From a virus, in the IMG/VR virus record IMGVR_UViG_3300031963_008590, positions 1-20,013 of that record: a stretch of 20,013 nt of DNA. One strand, written 5' to 3'. This document shows positions 8,873 through 17,707 of the stretch, one piece after another. The notes beneath the pieces were generated by a model. It was given only the letters and a program-made list of their open reading frames with translations, was not told where the DNA came from and ran no database searches. The translations under genes and the position numbers were made by a program. Numbering within the stretch: the first letter of the stretch is position 1; each line of letters opens with the position of its first letter.

Positions 8873-10252
8873 TTATAGTCCTAATCTTGTCAATAAATCA
8901 CCATCGTCATCATCATCGTCATCGTAGTCATCATCGTCATAATTATCACCCTTAAACTTGTTATATTGAGTCTTTGCTTGTTGGAAAATTTGTTCAAATC
9001 TTTGTTTTGCCTTTTGGTTGTCAGACTCATCTTGTGAGACAACATTTGCAATAATATTTTTAAGGAAGTCTTCCGCAGGAATACTATAAAGAATTTGTTC
9101 AAAGAACGGCATATATACTTTACCCTCGTTTTCCAATGTAAGTTCATCAGGTAATAATGTTCTTATTTTTCTAACTAATTCTGCACCTACTCTAAAATTC
9201 ATAGGTTCATTTGACATTGTATCAGTTTGAGAAATTACCTGTCTTGCCATTTCAGGGTCCATATCTTTCCATTGAGCTCGAGATTGAACGATTGAAAACG
9301 CCTTAAATAACTCGTGTAATAAAATGGGAAATATTAATCCATTTGCGTAATAAGTATCATTTGGTTCTTCATCTGCACCTCCCTCATCTTCGTCTTCATC
9401 ACTATCACCTGTGTCCATTTTTCCTGCAGAACCTGCGGCATTTCCACCGAGAGCTTCAATCAAGTCCTCATCTGTAAAATACATTAAATCATTTGCCCCC
9501 ATAATTTTGTTATAAAGCGAATATAAAGATGGATCTATCGCGTCCAACCTATCTTTATACATTTGGTATGCAAATTGTCCTCGTTTCCCTTTTCCTTGAA
9601 TAAGTGCATTTATTACATTACGTTTCTCTATCTCAAGTTGTTTTTGTTCTTCAGGTGTGAGTTCATCTATATCAAAAGAAAAATTTGGTGGTAATTGTAA
9701 TTTTTCAGGTTTTTGTGGTTTCATTTGAAAATCGGAAGGATTGACTCTTTGTTCTCCCAAAAAAGTTAAAATATTTACAAAATCAAACTCATATACGACA
9801 CCACCATTTTTACCTCTTTTTTTAACAACAATTCCTTCAGTAATTGCATCTTCCATACTTGTTGAGTAAGGTATCCAACCTTCTTCTTTTGCCGCTATTT
9901 CAATAGCCAGGTCTCGTAACTGTTCCCTGTGGGCAGGTTCAACACCCATGACACGTCTCACAGCCATCATTTGTTCCATTTGAATTGCTGCCTTTGTGGA
10001 AGGATCAGTTAGATTTCTTTCTGTCCCATAATATCTTTTTACGTAATCAACAATTTCTTTGAAACGTTTTTCTGTCATTCTTTCGACATCTTGTGTACCC
10101 CCTCTGAAAGCTCTATTTTTTGCATAAATTCCTTCTGGATCTTCAATTCGTTGTTGAGTTCTTGGGTGCATTCTTTCAGGATAGTCACCATATTCAACAG
10201 GTGCCTCCTTAACTATTTTCCTTATTAAATTTTCTAATTCGTTTGTTCCCAT
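8873..10252 (-). CDS. Unrecognised 459-aa protein, putative virion component
   Basis: I do not recognise a family. The N-terminus NELENLIRKIVKEAP is a short amphipathic helix. Residues 25-200 are mixed helix rich in charged residues (KRFKEIVDYVKRYYGTERN). An acidic linker lies near 285-300, a helical domain runs near 300-420 (LIFPILLHELFKAFSIVQSR), and the end is an almost pure Asp run (YDDDDYDDDDDDDGD) before LLTRLGL. There is no signal peptide or strong membrane helix. It is the last gene of a four-gene operon and starts 2 nt after the stop of the preceding gene. Its place beside the terminase and its size suggest a structural or head-filling protein, but this is positional inference. The Asp run is coded by GAT/GAC repeats that could slip. 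Confidence 0.82.
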   Translation of the reverse strand: MGTNELENLIRKIVKEAPVEYGDYPERMHPRTQQRIEDPEGIYAKNRAFRGGTQDVERMTEKRFKEIVDYVKRYYGTERNLTDPSTKAAIQMEQMMAVRRVMGVEPAHREQLRDLAIEIAAKEEGWIPYSTSMEDAITEGIVVKKRGKNGGVVYEFDFVNILTFLGEQRVNPSDFQMKPQKPEKLQLPPNFSFDIDELTPEEQKQLEIEKRNVINALIQGKGKRGQFAYQMYKDRLDAIDPSLYSLYNKIMGANDLMYFTDEDLIEALGGNAAGSAGKMDTGDSDEDEDEGGADEEPNDTYYANGLIFPILLHELFKAFSIVQSRAQWKDMDPEMARQVISQTDTMSNEPMNFRVGAELVRKIRTLLPDELTLENEGKVYMPFFEQILYSIPAEDFLKNIIANVVSQDESDNQKAKQRFEQIFQQAKTQYNKFKGDNYDDDDYDDDDDDDGDLLTRLGL

Positions 10253-13222: not shown

Positions 13223-13978
13223 TTATTGATTCATAGACAATTTTTTGTCTATTAGCTCAACTGATTTATTATGTAGCTTCTCAATATAACCGTTCCTTCG
13301 TAATATTTTGAACACCAAATTCTCAACAGAGTATTCGCCATTTTTTTCTAATCCAGATGTTCTAAATTTTTTCAATTTGTCTTTATATTTTTTTACTATA
13401 TTTTTTGCCGTTTCTAAATCGTCATCATCAATTGAGTCTATAAGGGTGTCAATATTTTTCATCCATTCCCTTGCTTTACTCAATATTAGTTTTTTATCTA
13501 TCTCAACATTTTCTTTCTTTGGGTTATTTGCCCATTCATCAAACAGTATCGAATAAACTCCACTACTGAAGTGTGTTTCGGTTTCATTTTGAACGTATAG
13601 CTCAACTTCATAACCTTTTATTCTAATGTCATGTTTGTCATTAAATATCATTTTTTTCAGTGTGAATAACTTTTCGTATAAGTCAATTTGACTTTCATCA
13701 TACTGTTGGAAATTTGCGACAATATGTAAATCAAAGTCTGAATACTTCGACCAATTGTAGTTTGCTAATGAACCTGTAAGAATTATATCAGTAACAATTA
13801 TATCAACGTCCAAAAATTCAATAAACTCATACGCTATTTCAAGAAGTCTATTTCTAATTTCAGGTTTTAATTTAAGTTCTTGTCCATCAGAGTCCTTCGG
13901 ATTTCCTTCAGGTGAAACCCAAACTTTAGGATTTAACTCTTTTTGAGGTATAAAACTTTTAATAATATCATTATTCAT
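13223..13978 (-). CDS. Nucleotidyltransferase-fold protein
   Basis: A 251-aa protein of the polymerase-beta-like nucleotidyltransferase superfamily. The signature ILTGSLANYNWSKYSDFDLH carries the Gly69-Ser70 loop and the paired metal ligands Asp81 and Asp83. A plausible third carboxylate is Glu126 in YEVELYV on the next strand. A helical C-terminal domain follows (residues 150-250). The active-site residues are intact, so it is probably catalytic, transferring an NMP to an unknown target; kinase- or tRNA-directed roles cannot be told apart from sequence. The start could be TTG at 13981, but ATG at 13978 is preferred. The TATTTATA box ends only 4 nt before that ATG. It sits between structural and host-directed genes and the KTSC gene upstream. 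Confidence 0.85.
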   Translation of the reverse strand: MNNDIIKSFIPQKELNPKVWVSPEGNPKDSDGQELKLKPEIRNRLLEIAYEFIEFLDVDIIVTDIILTGSLANYNWSKYSDFDLHIVANFQQYDESQIDLYEKLFTLKKMIFNDKHDIRIKGYEVELYVQNETETHFSSGVYSILFDEWANNPKKENVEIDKKLILSKAREWMKNIDTLIDSIDDDDLETAKNIVKKYKDKLKKFRTSGLEKNGEYSVENLVFKILRRNGYIEKLHNKSVELIDKKLSMNQ

Positions 13979-13982
13979 CAAA

Positions 13983-14004: not shown

Positions 14005-14250
14005 TTAGTCCAATTTCTTATACTTAAAGGTTCTTGATATGCTTTTGTTGAAGAATGAACCTTGGGATTTTGCGGTTCTGAATTGTGTATAAATTTGGTG
14101 AGGAACATCTTCGTATTCATACTTAATACCATTCTTAAATTCCGTTATTAATTTTTTGGTTTCCGTATCGTATTCCGTTCTTACTAAATTAGAGGAATCT
14201 ATTTCATTTATTATTTTTGTCCCTAAAATTTGTTCTTTTGTTATTGCCAT
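14005..14250 (-). CDS. KTSC-domain protein, 81 aa
   Basis: The protein consists of one KTSC domain. The diagnostic order is present: SSNLVRTEYDTETKKLITEF (residues 18-37), NGIKYEYEDVPHQIYTQF, and AKSQGSFFNKSISRTFKYKKL at the end (residues 60-80, given in two overlapping readings). KTSC domains are small beta-rich modules found in many phages and bacteria and in some lysyl-tRNA synthetases; the molecular function is not established. The start is placed at 14250 (MAITKEQILG) and not at the in-frame ATG at 14310, because a terminator and the promoter box lie between the two. It is followed by the nucleotidyltransferase gene after 26 nt. Confidence 0.88.
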   Translation of the reverse strand: MAITKEQILGTKIINEIDSSNLVRTEYDTETKKLITEFKNGIKYEYEDVPHQIYTQFRTAKSQGSFFNKSISRTFKYKKLD

Positions 14251-14265
14251 AATTTTTCTTATAAA

Positions 14266-14273
14266 GATAAATA
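14266..14273 (-). promoter_or_regulatory. TATTTATC box before the KTSC gene
   Basis: Seven of eight match on the coding strand, 15 nt before the ATG at 14250 and directly downstream of a terminator. Confidence 0.45.
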
Positions 14274-14277
14274 CAGG

Positions 14278-14307
14278 TAAAAAAAAATCCACCGTTTCCG
14301 ATGGATT
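14278..14307 (-). terminator. Intrinsic terminator after the UVR gene
   Basis: On the minus strand a 9-bp stem AATCCATCG / CGGTGGATT with one G-U pair closes a GAAA tetraloop and is followed by nine T. It separates the UVR gene from the KTSC gene. Confidence 0.85.
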
Positions 14308-14314
14308 CATTTTA

Positions 14315-14680
14315 TTACTTCAAGGAGTTGATTTTATCTCTTAACTCAATTGCCTTTTCGAAATCTTGTTTTTTGATACATTCGTCAAGTTCTGTTTTGA
14401 GCTTACTTATTTTCTCTTTGTTTTTTTCCAAAGTTTTTATTTTATCTCGTAACTCCACTGCTTCTTCAAATTTCTGTTCTTCAACCGCCATGTCAAGTCT
14501 TTGTTTGAGTAATGAAATCTCTTCAGATTCATTTAATTTCTCTTTTTTATTTGTTACATAAGTAAAAGAAATCATACCATCTTCAGATTTATAAGTTTTC
14601 TTTTCCCATCCGTCATTTAAGAATGTGTCTTCCATTCTAAACAAGTCATTGATAATTTTGTTAAAGTGACTGTTAAACAT
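14315..14680 (-). CDS. Small protein with two UVR motifs, putative Clp adaptor
   Basis: The protein is 121 aa. Residues 1-45 form a small N-terminal segment with WEKKTYKSEDGMISFTYV. Two UVR motifs follow: LLKQRLDMAVEEQKFEEAVELR (residues 58-79, cited in parts: LLKQRLDMAVEEQKFEE, AVELRDK) and LKTELDECIKKQDFEKAIEL (94-113). UVR motifs are helical hairpins that mediate protein contacts in UvrB, UvrC, ClpC and the ClpC regulator McsA. The motif here also occurs in the ClpC-like protein encoded divergently 160 bp away. McsA zinc-finger cysteines are absent, so it is not a full McsA. The start at 14680 is preferred over an upstream ATG at 14773, which would fuse a hydrophobic leader spanning the divergent promoter region. 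The adaptor role is inferred. Confidence 0.8.
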   Translation of the reverse strand: MFNSHFNKIINDLFRMEDTFLNDGWEKKTYKSEDGMISFTYVTNKKEKLNESEEISLLKQRLDMAVEEQKFEEAVELRDKIKTLEKNKEKISKLKTELDECIKKQDFEKAIELRDKINSLK

Positions 14681-14747: not shown

Positions 14748-14776
14748 TGACAAAATGTCAGTATAACTGACAAAAT
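14748..14776. promoter_or_regulatory. Candidate operator between UVR and clpC genes
   Basis: TGACAAAATGTCA is an inverted repeat with 5-bp arms, and a direct copy TGACAAAAT begins 20 bp after its start, about two helical turns. It lies in the 159-bp divergent intergenic region. It could bind a dimeric regulator of both genes. I see no convincing TAnnTTTG promoter for either gene here. Confidence 0.35.
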
Positions 14777-14839: not shown

Positions 14840-16906
14840 ATGGCAATAGAGTTTATTGATGACGGAGATAAGGGTAAAAGTAAATCAAGTAACAGTGGAA
14901 CACCAGTACTTGATAATTTTAGTAAAGATTTAATTAAACTTGCCGAAGAGGGTAAATTAGATCCTGTAATCGGTAGAAAAAAAGAAATTATTAGAATTGC
15001 ACAAGTTTTATCAAGAAGAAAGAAAAACAACCCAATTATTATTGGAGAACCTGGTGCGGGTAAAACCGCAATTGTTGAGGGTTTAGCTATGTTGATTCAC
15101 GCGGGTGAGTGTCCAAAGAATTTGTCAGAAAAGAGAATTATTTCTTTAGATATAAACTCAATTGTTGCAGGGACGAAATACCGAGGACAATTTGAAGAAA
15201 GAATGAAGGTGATTATTGAGGAATTACAGTCGAGTCCGAACATTATAATTTTTATCGATGAAATTCACACTATGGTTGGTGCGGGAAATAGTTCAGGTTC
15301 TTTGGATGCATCTAACATCTTCAAACCAGCTCTATCAAGAGGTGAAATACAATGTATTGGAGCAACAACTCTTGATGAGTATAGAAAACATTTTGAGAAA
15401 GATGGTGCATTAGAAAGAAGGTTTCAAAAAATAATTATCGACCCATCCACAAAAGAGGAGACTTTTGAAATTCTCAAATTGAGTAAGGATAAATATGAGG
15501 AACATCACAAAGTTAATTACAACGATGAGTCGTTGAGGTTGTGTGTTGAGTTAGCAGATAGATATATCACAGATAGAGAGTTTCCAGACAAAGCATTCGA
15601 CATTTTGGATGAGGTTGGTTCAAGAATGCAAATTGACATTAAATTACCTGAATACATCGAGGATTTGAAACAAGAAGCCGCAGACATCAAGAAAGAAAAA
15701 GTTGAGGTTATTAAAAAACAAAAGTATGAGTTAGCAGCAGAGCTTCGAGATAGAGAAAAAAATGTTTTAAAAAAATTAGAAGATGAAAAGATTAAATTCG
15801 AGGAGGAGTTAAGGATAAGTAAGAGAGGTATTCCTGAAGAACTTATTTATGAGGTTGTTTCAAACATGACAAAAATACCTGTAAGTAAAATCAATATTGA
15901 TGAAAAAAATTCATTGGTTAATTTAGAGGATTCATTAAATAATGTAGTGATTGGACAAGAAGAAGCTGTTAAGAAAATATCTAAATCAATAAGAAGAAAT
16001 AGAGTTGGTATAAAAGATCCAAATAAACCAATAGGTTCATTTATTTTCTTGGGTTCAACTGGTGTTGGTAAGACTTTCTTGGCAAAAAAATTAGCAAAAG
16101 AAATATTTGGAAGTGAGGACAGTCTAATAAGAGTGGATATGTCAGAATACCAAGAAAAACATACTATATCAAGATTGATTGGTTCTCCTCCTGGATATGT
16201 TGGACACGAAGAGGGTGGACAATTAACTGAACAAGTAAAAAACAAACCTTATTCCGTAATTCTTTTTGATGAAATAGAAAAAGCGAACAAAGACATCTTC
16301 TCTACATTACTTCAAATGTTAGATGATGGACATATGACAGATGGATTAGGTAGAAAAATCAACTTCAAAAATTGTTTAATTATTATGACATCAAATATTG
16401 GTGTTAGAAAATTACAGGATTTTGGTACTGGTGTTGGATTCAAAACATCAAACAACAGTGATGCAATACAAGAAGAATATAAAAGAGATGTTCTGAAAAA
16501 AGAGTTGAGTAAATTTTTTGCACCTGAATTTTTGAACAGAATAGATGACGTTGTAATTTTCAATTCCCTTAAAAAGAATCATATTGATGTAATAGTTAAA
16601 TTGGAAATTGATAAATTAGTTACAAGATTAGAAGGAATGAAATATAGTATCGGTTATGAAACATCAGTTATTGATTTAATATCTGAAGTGGGTTTTGATG
16701 AACAATATGGTGCACGACCCATCAAGCGGGCAATCCAAGATAAAATTGAAGATTTAATTTCAGAAAAAATACTACTCGAAGAAATACACGAAGGTAAAGA
16801 CTATATGTTATTTGTAAAAATAGATGGTGAGGATAAAGTTATTGAAATTGAAGAAAGGGTAAAACCTGAACCAAAGAAAAGAGGTAGAAAGAAAAAGGGG
16901 GAATAA
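14840..16906 (+). CDS. clpC: ClpC-like double AAA+ unfoldase without the N-domain
   Basis: Hexameric Clp unfoldases pull substrates into the ClpP protease chamber. This 688-aa protein has two complete AAA+ modules. D1 has Walker A GEPGAGKT (69-76), Walker B IFIDE (Asp140-Glu141), pore loop GTKYRGQ and Arg in LERRF. D2 has Walker A GSTGVGKT (405-412), Walker B ILFDE (Asp477-Glu478), pore loop GYVG (452-455) and FLNRID. Between them is a short middle domain with a UVR motif (KKQKYELAAELRDREK). GTGVGFKT at 530-536 carries the VGF tripeptide that docks ClpC on ClpP. Cellular ClpC is about 810-860 aa; here the 150-residue N-domain is replaced by about 20 residues and the protein begins almost at TPVLDNF. 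A basic tail KKRGRKKKGE ends it. It is the longest plus-strand gene. Confidence 0.93.
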   Translation: MAIEFIDDGDKGKSKSSNSGTPVLDNFSKDLIKLAEEGKLDPVIGRKKEIIRIAQVLSRRKKNNPIIIGEPGAGKTAIVEGLAMLIHAGECPKNLSEKRIISLDINSIVAGTKYRGQFEERMKVIIEELQSSPNIIIFIDEIHTMVGAGNSSGSLDASNIFKPALSRGEIQCIGATTLDEYRKHFEKDGALERRFQKIIIDPSTKEETFEILKLSKDKYEEHHKVNYNDESLRLCVELADRYITDREFPDKAFDILDEVGSRMQIDIKLPEYIEDLKQEAADIKKEKVEVIKKQKYELAAELRDREKNVLKKLEDEKIKFEEELRISKRGIPEELIYEVVSNMTKIPVSKINIDEKNSLVNLEDSLNNVVIGQEEAVKKISKSIRRNRVGIKDPNKPIGSFIFLGSTGVGKTFLAKKLAKEIFGSEDSLIRVDMSEYQEKHTISRLIGSPPGYVGHEEGGQLTEQVKNKPYSVILFDEIEKANKDIFSTLLQMLDDGHMTDGLGRKINFKNCLIIMTSNIGVRKLQDFGTGVGFKTSNNSDAIQEEYKRDVLKKELSKFFAPEFLNRIDDVVIFNSLKKNHIDVIVKLEIDKLVTRLEGMKYSIGYETSVIDLISEVGFDEQYGARPIKRAIQDKIEDLISEKILLEEIHEGKDYMLFVKIDGEDKVIEIEERVKPEPKKRGRKKKGE

Positions 16907-16925
16907 AACCCCCCCCCTTTTTTAA
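16892..16925. terminator. Bidirectional terminator between clpC and the peptidase gene
   Basis: AAAAAGGGGG pairs with CCCCC and TTTTT across a short loop that contains the clpC stop codon, with T-rich or A-rich flanks. It can end both the plus-strand clpC transcript and the convergent peptidase transcript. Confidence 0.75.
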
Positions 16926-17707
16926 TGTCTCTCGTAACCTAACTCTTCTATCATCATCTTACCTACTTTGATTCCATTGTAAGTATCGTCAACAACCACG
17001 TATTCGTTTCTTGTATGATAATTATAATAACCGATTGAGATGTTAAAACAAGATATATTATAATTTTTGTGAAGAGGGTATATATCGGTATAAGGGTGTC
17101 TATGATATTTGGTATCATTTGGGAAGTGTTCTGTAATTAATCTCCCACCGACCTCAAAAAATTTACTACCTCTATCAAACATAGGAACACCCATTAAAAA
17201 TTCTGAAATCATATTATTTTCAGGTGCGTCAAACTGAATTGCATAACCAACGTTCTCAAAAAAGTGGGGGTCTGAGTTAAACGAACCTTTACATCCAGTT
17301 TCTTCTGCAACAAAAAATGCGGCTTTTAAATTTGGTAATTCTTTAAGTAATTCTAAACAGGCGAATACACCACATTTATCATCACCACCAATTCCTGTCG
17401 GTTCTCCATTATCATTATACGCTTTAAGTGATAATTTTACATTACCTTGCGCATCAGATAACATTTCTTCTCTTACGTTGATTGTATCAATAGTATGAAC
17501 CGTATCTGTGTGTGCCACAACACAAGGAAAGAACTCTACATCCTCATCAGTTTCTTTGGTGGCGTAAATGTTATATAACTCATCCACATAATAGGGGATG
17601 TTTTCTTTCTCCAACCAAGTGGTAATAAAGTCAATCATCAAATCCTCTTGGTATGTCTTCGTGGGAACGGACAAAACCTTCTTTAACAACTCAAAATCTC
17701 TTTCCAT
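16922..17707 (-). CDS. Compact M20/M28/M42-type zinc metallopeptidase
   Basis: A 261-aa co-catalytic zinc peptidase. Metal-ligand and catalytic positions can be read in order: VAHTDTVH (His66, Asp68), GIGGDDKCG (Asp109/110, bridging ligand), VAEETGCKGS (Glu135 catalytic base, Glu136 ligand), QFDAP (Asp160) and YYNYHTRNEYV (His231). PepT and similar M20 enzymes are about 370-410 aa with an inserted lid/dimerisation domain, which is missing here, so the protein is essentially the catalytic domain and nearer in size to small M28/M42 forms. It has no signal peptide and should act in the cytoplasm as an aminopeptidase or di/tripeptidase. It lies 22 nt after the 353-aa gene, in the same operon, and converges on clpC. 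The substrate is unknown. Confidence 0.85.
   Translation of the reverse strand: MERDFELLKKVLSVPTKTYQEDLMIDFITTWLEKENIPYYVDELYNIYATKETDEDVEFFPCVVAHTDTVHTIDTINVREEMLSDAQGNVKLSLKAYNDNGEPTGIGGDDKCGVFACLELLKELPNLKAAFFVAEETGCKGSFNSDPHFFENVGYAIQFDAPENNMISEFLMGVPMFDRGSKFFEVGGRLITEHFPNDTKYHRHPYTDIYPLHKNYNISCFNISIGYYNYHTRNEYVVVDDTYNGIKVGKMMIEELGYERH

Follow-up and report, generated by a model that had tools for sequence, protein, structure and literature searches.

The analysed window is a 20,013-base virus record carrying head and packaging genes (TerL, portal, and head maturation protease), and in it a small protein with two UVR motifs is encoded divergently from a ClpC-type unfoldase. Our main finding is an exchangeable chaperone slot at this position in related phages, together with a palindrome common to the chaperone genes, which places the two-UVR protein in a phage proteostasis module. 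An interchangeable chaperone slot at phage clpC is previously undescribed. The two-UVR protein itself is probably a swappable helper of the phage protein-unfolding machine.

The two-UVR gene and its neighbours

The UVR profile of Pfam (PF02151) matches the 121-aa protein in two stretches, with E 6.5e-17 and a score of 61 bits (cut-off 21.5), and the same profile is matched by all 46 aligned members of its family (46/46). The gene is conserved in 45 relatives at 34-71% identity, with residues L62, F71, R78, D79, I81, E108, I111, and R114 invariant in the family alignment, and is therefore a real one. Pfam and alignment agree that the motif occurs twice in this protein and once in the M-domain of the divergent ClpC, as the first-pass annotation had read from the letters alone. 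The missing zinc fingers which it had pointed out are confirmed too, since the single cysteine of the protein makes a zinc finger impossible. Among the PHROG families no good match was found (best E 0.014), and a tblastn search with the protein through 50,697 annotated phage records yielded two partial matches only (E 0.2). The features discussed below are collected in Table 1.

Table 1. Positions and grounds for assignment of the features in the window and of the UVR-dnaK loci in related records
Feature	Coordinates	Strand	Basis
Two-UVR protein, 121 aa	14315..14680	-	ORF; two PF02151 stretches; conserved family A1
N-terminal helix part, residues 10-20; small-HSP-like FxxLFxxFF-type arm in relatives	14621..14653	-	AF2 helix 2-23; profile similarity
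UVR hairpin 1, residues 62-86	14423..14497	-	Pfam; Foldseek match to 9goq_g
UVR hairpin 2, residues 98-120	14321..14389	-	Pfam
Intrinsic-terminator-like hairpin ATCCATCG-GAAA-CGGTGGAT, then T run	14281..14308	-	3' of the UVR stop codon; read by eye from the sequence
KTSC-domain protein, conserved on the other side of the slot	14005..14310	-	PF13619, E 1.8e-16; synteny
Palindrome TGACAAAATGTCA	14748..14760	.	Between the divergent genes, 67 nt before the UVR start codon; no other exact copy in the window
N-domain-less phage ClpC, 688 aa	14840..16906	+	Alignment to S. aureus ClpC; divergent from the UVR gene
UVR-type tip of the ClpC M-domain, KKQKYELAAELRD	15713..15751	+	Y at the F436 position, R443, D444
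GVGF, ClpP-binding-loop motif	16430..16441	+	Alignment with the VGF/AGF loop in ClpC of B. subtilis and S. aureus
UVR-dnaK loci	L306:3499-5869; also L271, L275-L278, L299, L310	same strand	Touching or overlapping frames

Beside the KTSC gene, a nucleotidyltransferase-domain protein (PF01909, phrog_36119; window 13223-13981) is conserved. ClpC is adjoined by a peptidase gene (phrog_4191, weak M20/M42; window 16922-17707), which occurs in either orientation in the relatives.

Several identities were considered and rejected. UvrB or UvrC was ruled out because the protein has 121 aa, with UVR as the only domain above the cut-off and without helicase or nuclease domains, and a DNA-repair reading was ruled out because the neighbourhood offers nothing for repair. 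An alpha-crystallin domain (PF00011) was absent from the protein in the Pfam search.

Pairing of the UVR gene with clpC

The first scan, with the UVR protein as a query, returned 35 viral loci, three of which begin within 70 nt of the gene; ClpC is directly divergent from the UVR gene in all 32 informative loci (32/32). The second scan, with a UVR profile, returned 80 loci, some of them on contigs common to the first scan, and ClpC is directly divergent at 75 of the 77 informative ones, the other three being cut too close. The two exceptions are represented by L409, where ClpC is located about 900 nt off, and by L410, whose contig begins 173 nt upstream. The first-pass annotation had staked its proposal on co-occurrence across related phages, and both scans demonstrate it, the counted loci being related, many of them near-duplicates, so that Fisher values for such counts do not represent independent tests. 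The 309-kb record G017 has another two ORFs with UVR motifs (145 and 118 aa) away from ClpC, at C1:14388-14477 and 42254-42310.

A sample based on TerL was meant for relatives that do not have ClpC. It comprised 80 loci, and in 35 of them the sequence upstream of TerL exceeds 5.5 kb. Among these usable loci, 25 have ClpC (17 of them together with the UVR gene), one has the UVR gene at the locus edge with ClpC out of view, and nine have neither gene; these nine are not readable as absences, since some have a rearranged region (L149 and L046 are one contig) or the contig ends.

The exchangeable slot

The content of the slot was surveyed in the 80 closest ClpC loci of more than 599, a sample less biased than the set of 133 distinct ClpC proteins, which over-represents the Hsp20 and DnaK slots because two of the scans used those proteins as queries. 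The first recognised gene divergent from ClpC encodes a UVR protein in 36 of these loci, Hsp20 in 15, and DnaK in 5; in 23 loci none of the three is present, the first gene being KTSC (an empty slot) in 15 and P95 in 8, and one locus is cut off. The UVR protein is thus not required, as 23 of the 80 ClpC loci do without UVR, Hsp20, or DnaK. P95 is a conserved family of about 95-110 aa located between the slot and the KTSC gene, and it is found with Hsp20, with DnaK, or alone (for example, L054:7632-7958 and L067:5593-5976).

In 24 long records searched with PF02151, PF00011, and PF00012, the UVR gene is present in 12, Hsp20 in 5, Hsp70 in 2, and none of them in 5, with zero overlap. The single PF02151 match that remains in the UVR-negative long records is the ClpC M-domain, and G016 has an extra weak match in a 464-aa ORF. 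On the ClpC tree of 133 tips, which was built quickly with a plain model, at least 26 changes of slot state are needed (61-77 with shuffled labels), and the maximum ClpC identity between different slot types reaches 92.6% for UVR/Hsp20, 93.9% for UVR/DnaK, and 97.0% for UVR/empty. The slot was therefore exchanged often, given this number of changes and nearly identical ClpC proteins with different occupants. The recurrent recognisable occupants are proteostasis proteins.

Scanning with the other occupants gave the reciprocal view. With the slot Hsp20 as a query, 34 loci were found; ClpC is divergent in 32 of the 33 informative ones, and one is cut. The counter-example is L225, in which Hsp20 has 1.2 kb of upstream sequence and ClpC is absent there. 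With the slot DnaK, 78 loci were found: ClpC is divergent in 32, a UVR gene is located upstream in 8, 5 are cut, and 33 have neither. ClpC was not found in six records of the UVR-dnaK loci, these records being fragments. Two more ORFs of the UVR-dnaK locus L306 were named by eye, one resembling glutamine synthetase and the other ClpP (9268-9863).

The arrangement in the eight loci, where the same-strand UVR gene lies immediately upstream of dnaK and touches or overlaps its frame (8/78, representing only about four distinct sequences), would suit a protein that was a DnaK co-factor in origin, with ClpC adjacency being secondary, and that passes DnaK clients to ClpC or works with the host DnaK. 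However, the UVR protein was not found in the two long records having dnaK in the ClpC slot, and J-domain and GrpE matches were absent in the Pfam search, which makes such an origin very improbable.

These data bear on the proposal of the first-pass annotation that the two-UVR protein is a dedicated adaptor of the phage ClpC. The guess of an adaptor was fair, and it gains support from the ClpC pairing and from UVR/M-domain biology. The word "dedicated" was wrong, because ClpC often occurs without a UVR gene, the slot takes Hsp20 or DnaK as alternatives, and UVR genes are also found upstream of dnaK.

The palindrome common to chaperone genes

Exact TGACAnnnTGTCA within 250 nt upstream of the gene was found for 101 of 149 UVR, hsp20, and dnaK genes and for 2 of 1410 background ORFs; the total of 149 also counts two genes with ClpC out of view, one UVR and one Hsp20. 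Among the genes linked to ClpC, the exact palindrome precedes 50 of 53 UVR genes, 15 of 36 Hsp20 genes (31 of 36 with up to one mismatch), and 13 of 25 DnaK genes (22 of 25 with up to one mismatch). It is also found upstream of 18 of 29 DnaK genes without ClpC nearby and of three of the four UVR genes that precede dnaK. The UVR gene is therefore linked to chaperone genes independently of ClpC adjacency.

In slot-empty loci, the palindrome occurs within 260 nt of clpC in 3/17 cases for KTSC and in 0/8 for P95 (3/25 together). The 28 long records contain 32 palindrome sites, 19 of which are directly upstream of UVR, hsp20, or dnaK; several of the other 13 sites (12 regions) are located beside or inside unrelated genes. 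For the half-sites in another arrangement, TGTCAnnnnnnTGACA, the window had no excess over chance. With regard to a possible host origin of the palindrome, 27 Hsp20 upstream regions were checked (30 loci, 61 genomes, from the phylum of an Ignavibacteria MAG), and the palindrome was found exactly in one and with up to one mismatch in two, the exact one included; a search of the class around a MAG labelled Marinifilum (a doubtful label) gave no palindrome match in 8 genomes.

One can suggest that different genes simply insert at this site and that the UVR gene is there as unrelated cargo. Gains and losses in the slot are indeed frequent, and other small ORFs occupy it too in some loci. This explanation is disfavoured and hardly credible to us, because the occupants that recur and can be recognised are proteostasis genes and have one palindrome in common.

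Structure and the N-terminal arm

The AF2 model of the two-UVR protein is weak (pLDDT 65.9, pTM 0.38), and its layout, read from this weak model, comprises a helix (2-23), a beta-hairpin (25-31/38-44), and two UVR hairpins with a common long central helix. A Foldseek search of the model against PDB and BFVD gave nothing reaching E 0.001. The match with the highest probability was 9goq_g, a chain of 53 residues (probability 0.85, rmsd 0.6 A over 44 columns, E 2.7); this chain belongs to a MecA/ClpC structure and is taken as a ClpC M-domain fragment, the named ClpC chains ranking lower.

The N-terminal profile of the UVR family resembles the N-terminus of the slot Hsp20, with a score of 19.7 against a maximum of 15.6 in 200 column shuffles, over 15 residues only. 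A loose N-terminal motif is present in 38 of 61 UVR proteins, 9 of 35 Hsp20 proteins, and 67 of 1245 background ORFs. This likeness is suggestive of a client-binding arm and is not a proof of homology.

Another explanation is a stand-alone holdase, substituting for a small HSP in the same regulon: the N-terminal arm would bind unfolded proteins, the UVR pair would make the protein oligomerise, and adjacency to ClpC, without any contact with it, would reflect a common stress promoter. In addition to the short N-terminal similarity to the slot Hsp20, the replacement of Hsp20 by the UVR protein in the slot, the palindrome common to UVR genes and to dnaK genes away from ClpC, and the location of the UVR gene directly upstream of dnaK in some loci agree with this possibility. 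Nevertheless, it leaves the use of a ClpC M-domain motif unexplained, and the known UVR partners of such a kind act with ClpC; we regard a holdase role as rather unlikely.

The phage ClpC

The best solved relative of the phage ClpC is ClpC of S. aureus, to which it aligns over residues 150-808 (E 3e-217). Since the alignment begins at residue 150, the N-domain is absent from the ClpC of the window, and in 172 complete phage ClpC ORFs AAA1, with PxLDxF at its start, comes after just 19-51 residues. One ClpC-like match, 57% identical, lies in an 837-aa open frame (G047:C1:85783-87711) and may retain a longer N-terminus.

The protein has two AAA+ modules. Among 133 distinct aligned phage ClpC proteins, Walker A/B are conserved, and the two pore motifs, TKYRG and GY.G, do not vary. 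The M-domain tip is kept in 133/133, with Y, rarely F, at position 436 and with E437, R443, and D444 invariant. The ClpP-loop position is occupied by [VIML]GF in all of them (133/133), and the phage ClpC therefore looks like a ClpP partner. An own ClpP is encoded in 8 of 24 long relatives (G013, G015-G020, and G024; L117-L122).

Comparison with known systems

Among known systems, the UVR part of the two-UVR protein is closest to McsA from the mcsA-mcsB-clpC operons, which is likewise encoded by a partner gene of ClpC and bears a C-terminal UVR hairpin (PDB 8wtb). McsA activates the McsB kinase, and its second zinc finger mediates the contact (PMC7235348, partial text). Identity with McsA was ruled out: both the two zinc fingers with their four CxxC and an adjacent mcsB are absent. 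Moreover, the phage protein has two UVR motifs instead of the single one in McsA and a different N-terminus, and its gene is divergent from clpC, while mcsA is co-operonic; its neighbours are ClpC, KTSC, and then the nucleotidyltransferase-domain protein.

The nearest cellular relatives are mostly McsA: of the 80 genome loci listed, 59 have at least two CxxC and clpC in the locus. The rest include five with zinc-finger motifs only, seven UvrB/UvrC, three UVR-DUF151 (the names of the latter two groups being given by eye), and six unassigned. Thus, none of the 74 assigned cellular loci among the matches listed encodes a zinc-less two-UVR protein.

The plastid CLPC1 partners resemble the phage protein in bearing UVR: CLPF acts as an adaptor of ClpC, and EXE1, EXE2, and UVR2-4 were captured with CLPC1 as the trap (PMC8889267, partial text). 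They carry other domains (DUF151 in UVR2-4), whereas the phage protein consists of UVR and a short N-terminal part. The UVR hairpin is also similar to the ClpC M-domain itself, superimposing on S. aureus structures 9goq, 9qqr, and 9rai with 0.6-0.7 A over 36-44 columns at 41-47% identity, at E-values that are not significant. The difference is that the phage hairpins are free-standing, duplicated in tandem, and located outside any ATPase.

Proteostasis genes are encoded by other phages as well, for example, small HSPs (cyanophage Hsp20) and the DnaK, DnaJ, and Hsp20 of some moraphages. The latter are large aquatic phages of Bacteroidota hosts with a ClpA-type gene in their core, and the available part of the moraphage account mentions neither "uvr" nor an exchange at one slot (PMC12619734, partial text). 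A phage-encoded Clp adaptor is represented by jumbo-phage ClpS, which is predicted to serve the host ClpAP and belongs to an adaptor family other than that of the UVR protein (PMC7824862, partial text). In the open-licence literature, no relevant report on phage ClpC with UVR, or on a phage UVR domain with DnaK, was found among the matches listed.

Possible mechanism

The best explanation, in our opinion, is that the two-UVR protein assists the phage's own ClpC in proteostasis by docking on the M-domains and switching ClpC on; we give it an even chance of being correct. The observations in its favour include the divergent pairing with ClpC, the replacement by Hsp20 or Hsp70 in the slot, their mutual exclusion, and the palindrome common to these genes. 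Its parts are of different strength. The functional class, a proteostasis factor in the ClpC pathway, is likely, and the specific step of M-domain docking and activation, which we infer, is tentative and somewhat short of even.

The phage ClpC is devoid of the N-domain used by host adaptors and retains the M-domain tip that holds the resting state. The two UVR hairpins, being two copies of a hairpin similar to the ClpC M-domain, would dock on the M-domains of ClpC, and this docking would break their head-to-head contacts and switch ClpC on. The N-terminal helix and beta-hairpin of the UVR protein would hold the client, which ClpC would then unfold or feed to ClpP, either phage-encoded, as in some relatives, or provided by the host.

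In S. aureus ClpC, the head-to-head contact is formed by F436, R443, and D444, and F436 binds MecA (PMC5699869, partial text); the invariant F71, R78, and D79 of the UVR protein correspond to these residues. S. aureus ClpC deprived of the N-domain is proteolytically active only when its M-domain tip is mutated too (PMC12583610, partial text). By this precedent, the phage ClpC should be locked, because it is naturally N-domain-less with an intact tip, and two free hairpins of the M-domain type are, by analogy, a plausible key to the locked ClpC.

Some observations speak against docking. The tip residues are conserved in the 133 ClpC proteins whatever the slot holds, including the loci without a UVR gene, and the tip is thus not kept for the UVR protein; in addition, F, R, and D are general residues of the UVR motif. 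Specificity for ClpC is questioned by the pairing of the UVR family with dnaK (eight loci).

The same hairpins could act in the opposite direction, as an anti-adaptor: they would pair with the ClpC M-domains and cap or stabilise the inactive state until the unfoldase is needed. Deregulated M-domain mutants of ClpC are toxic (PMC5699869, partial text), and a UVR-UVR contact could reinforce the resting state rather than break it. We consider this function improbable, because one would hardly expect a repressor to give way to Hsp20 or DnaK in the slot, and N-domain-less S. aureus ClpC with an intact M-domain is inactive already (PMC12583610, partial text).

Extending the activation of ClpC by docking to the whole group, we suppose, with a degree of doubt slightly greater than for the docking step itself, that large aquatic phages carry a modular heat-shock unit composed of an N-domain-less ClpC and one exchangeable partner (two-UVR, Hsp20, or Hsp70) under a common palindromic operator. 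The two-UVR protein would be a duplicated M-domain mimic with a small-HSP-like client arm, which activates a ClpC beyond the reach of N-domain adaptors.

Meaning for phage proteostasis

That UVR, Hsp20, and Hsp70 have replaced one another repeatedly in a single slot suggests that these proteins do equivalent work upstream of ClpC, and a likely role can be assigned to a small protein family that has no good PHROG match. The release of ClpC from its M-domain-locked resting state is understood mainly via N-domain adaptors such as MecA. If our reading is true, the phage ClpC, which has lost the N-domain, kept the lock, and is accompanied by a free double-lock protein, would represent a minimal natural test of M-domain control.
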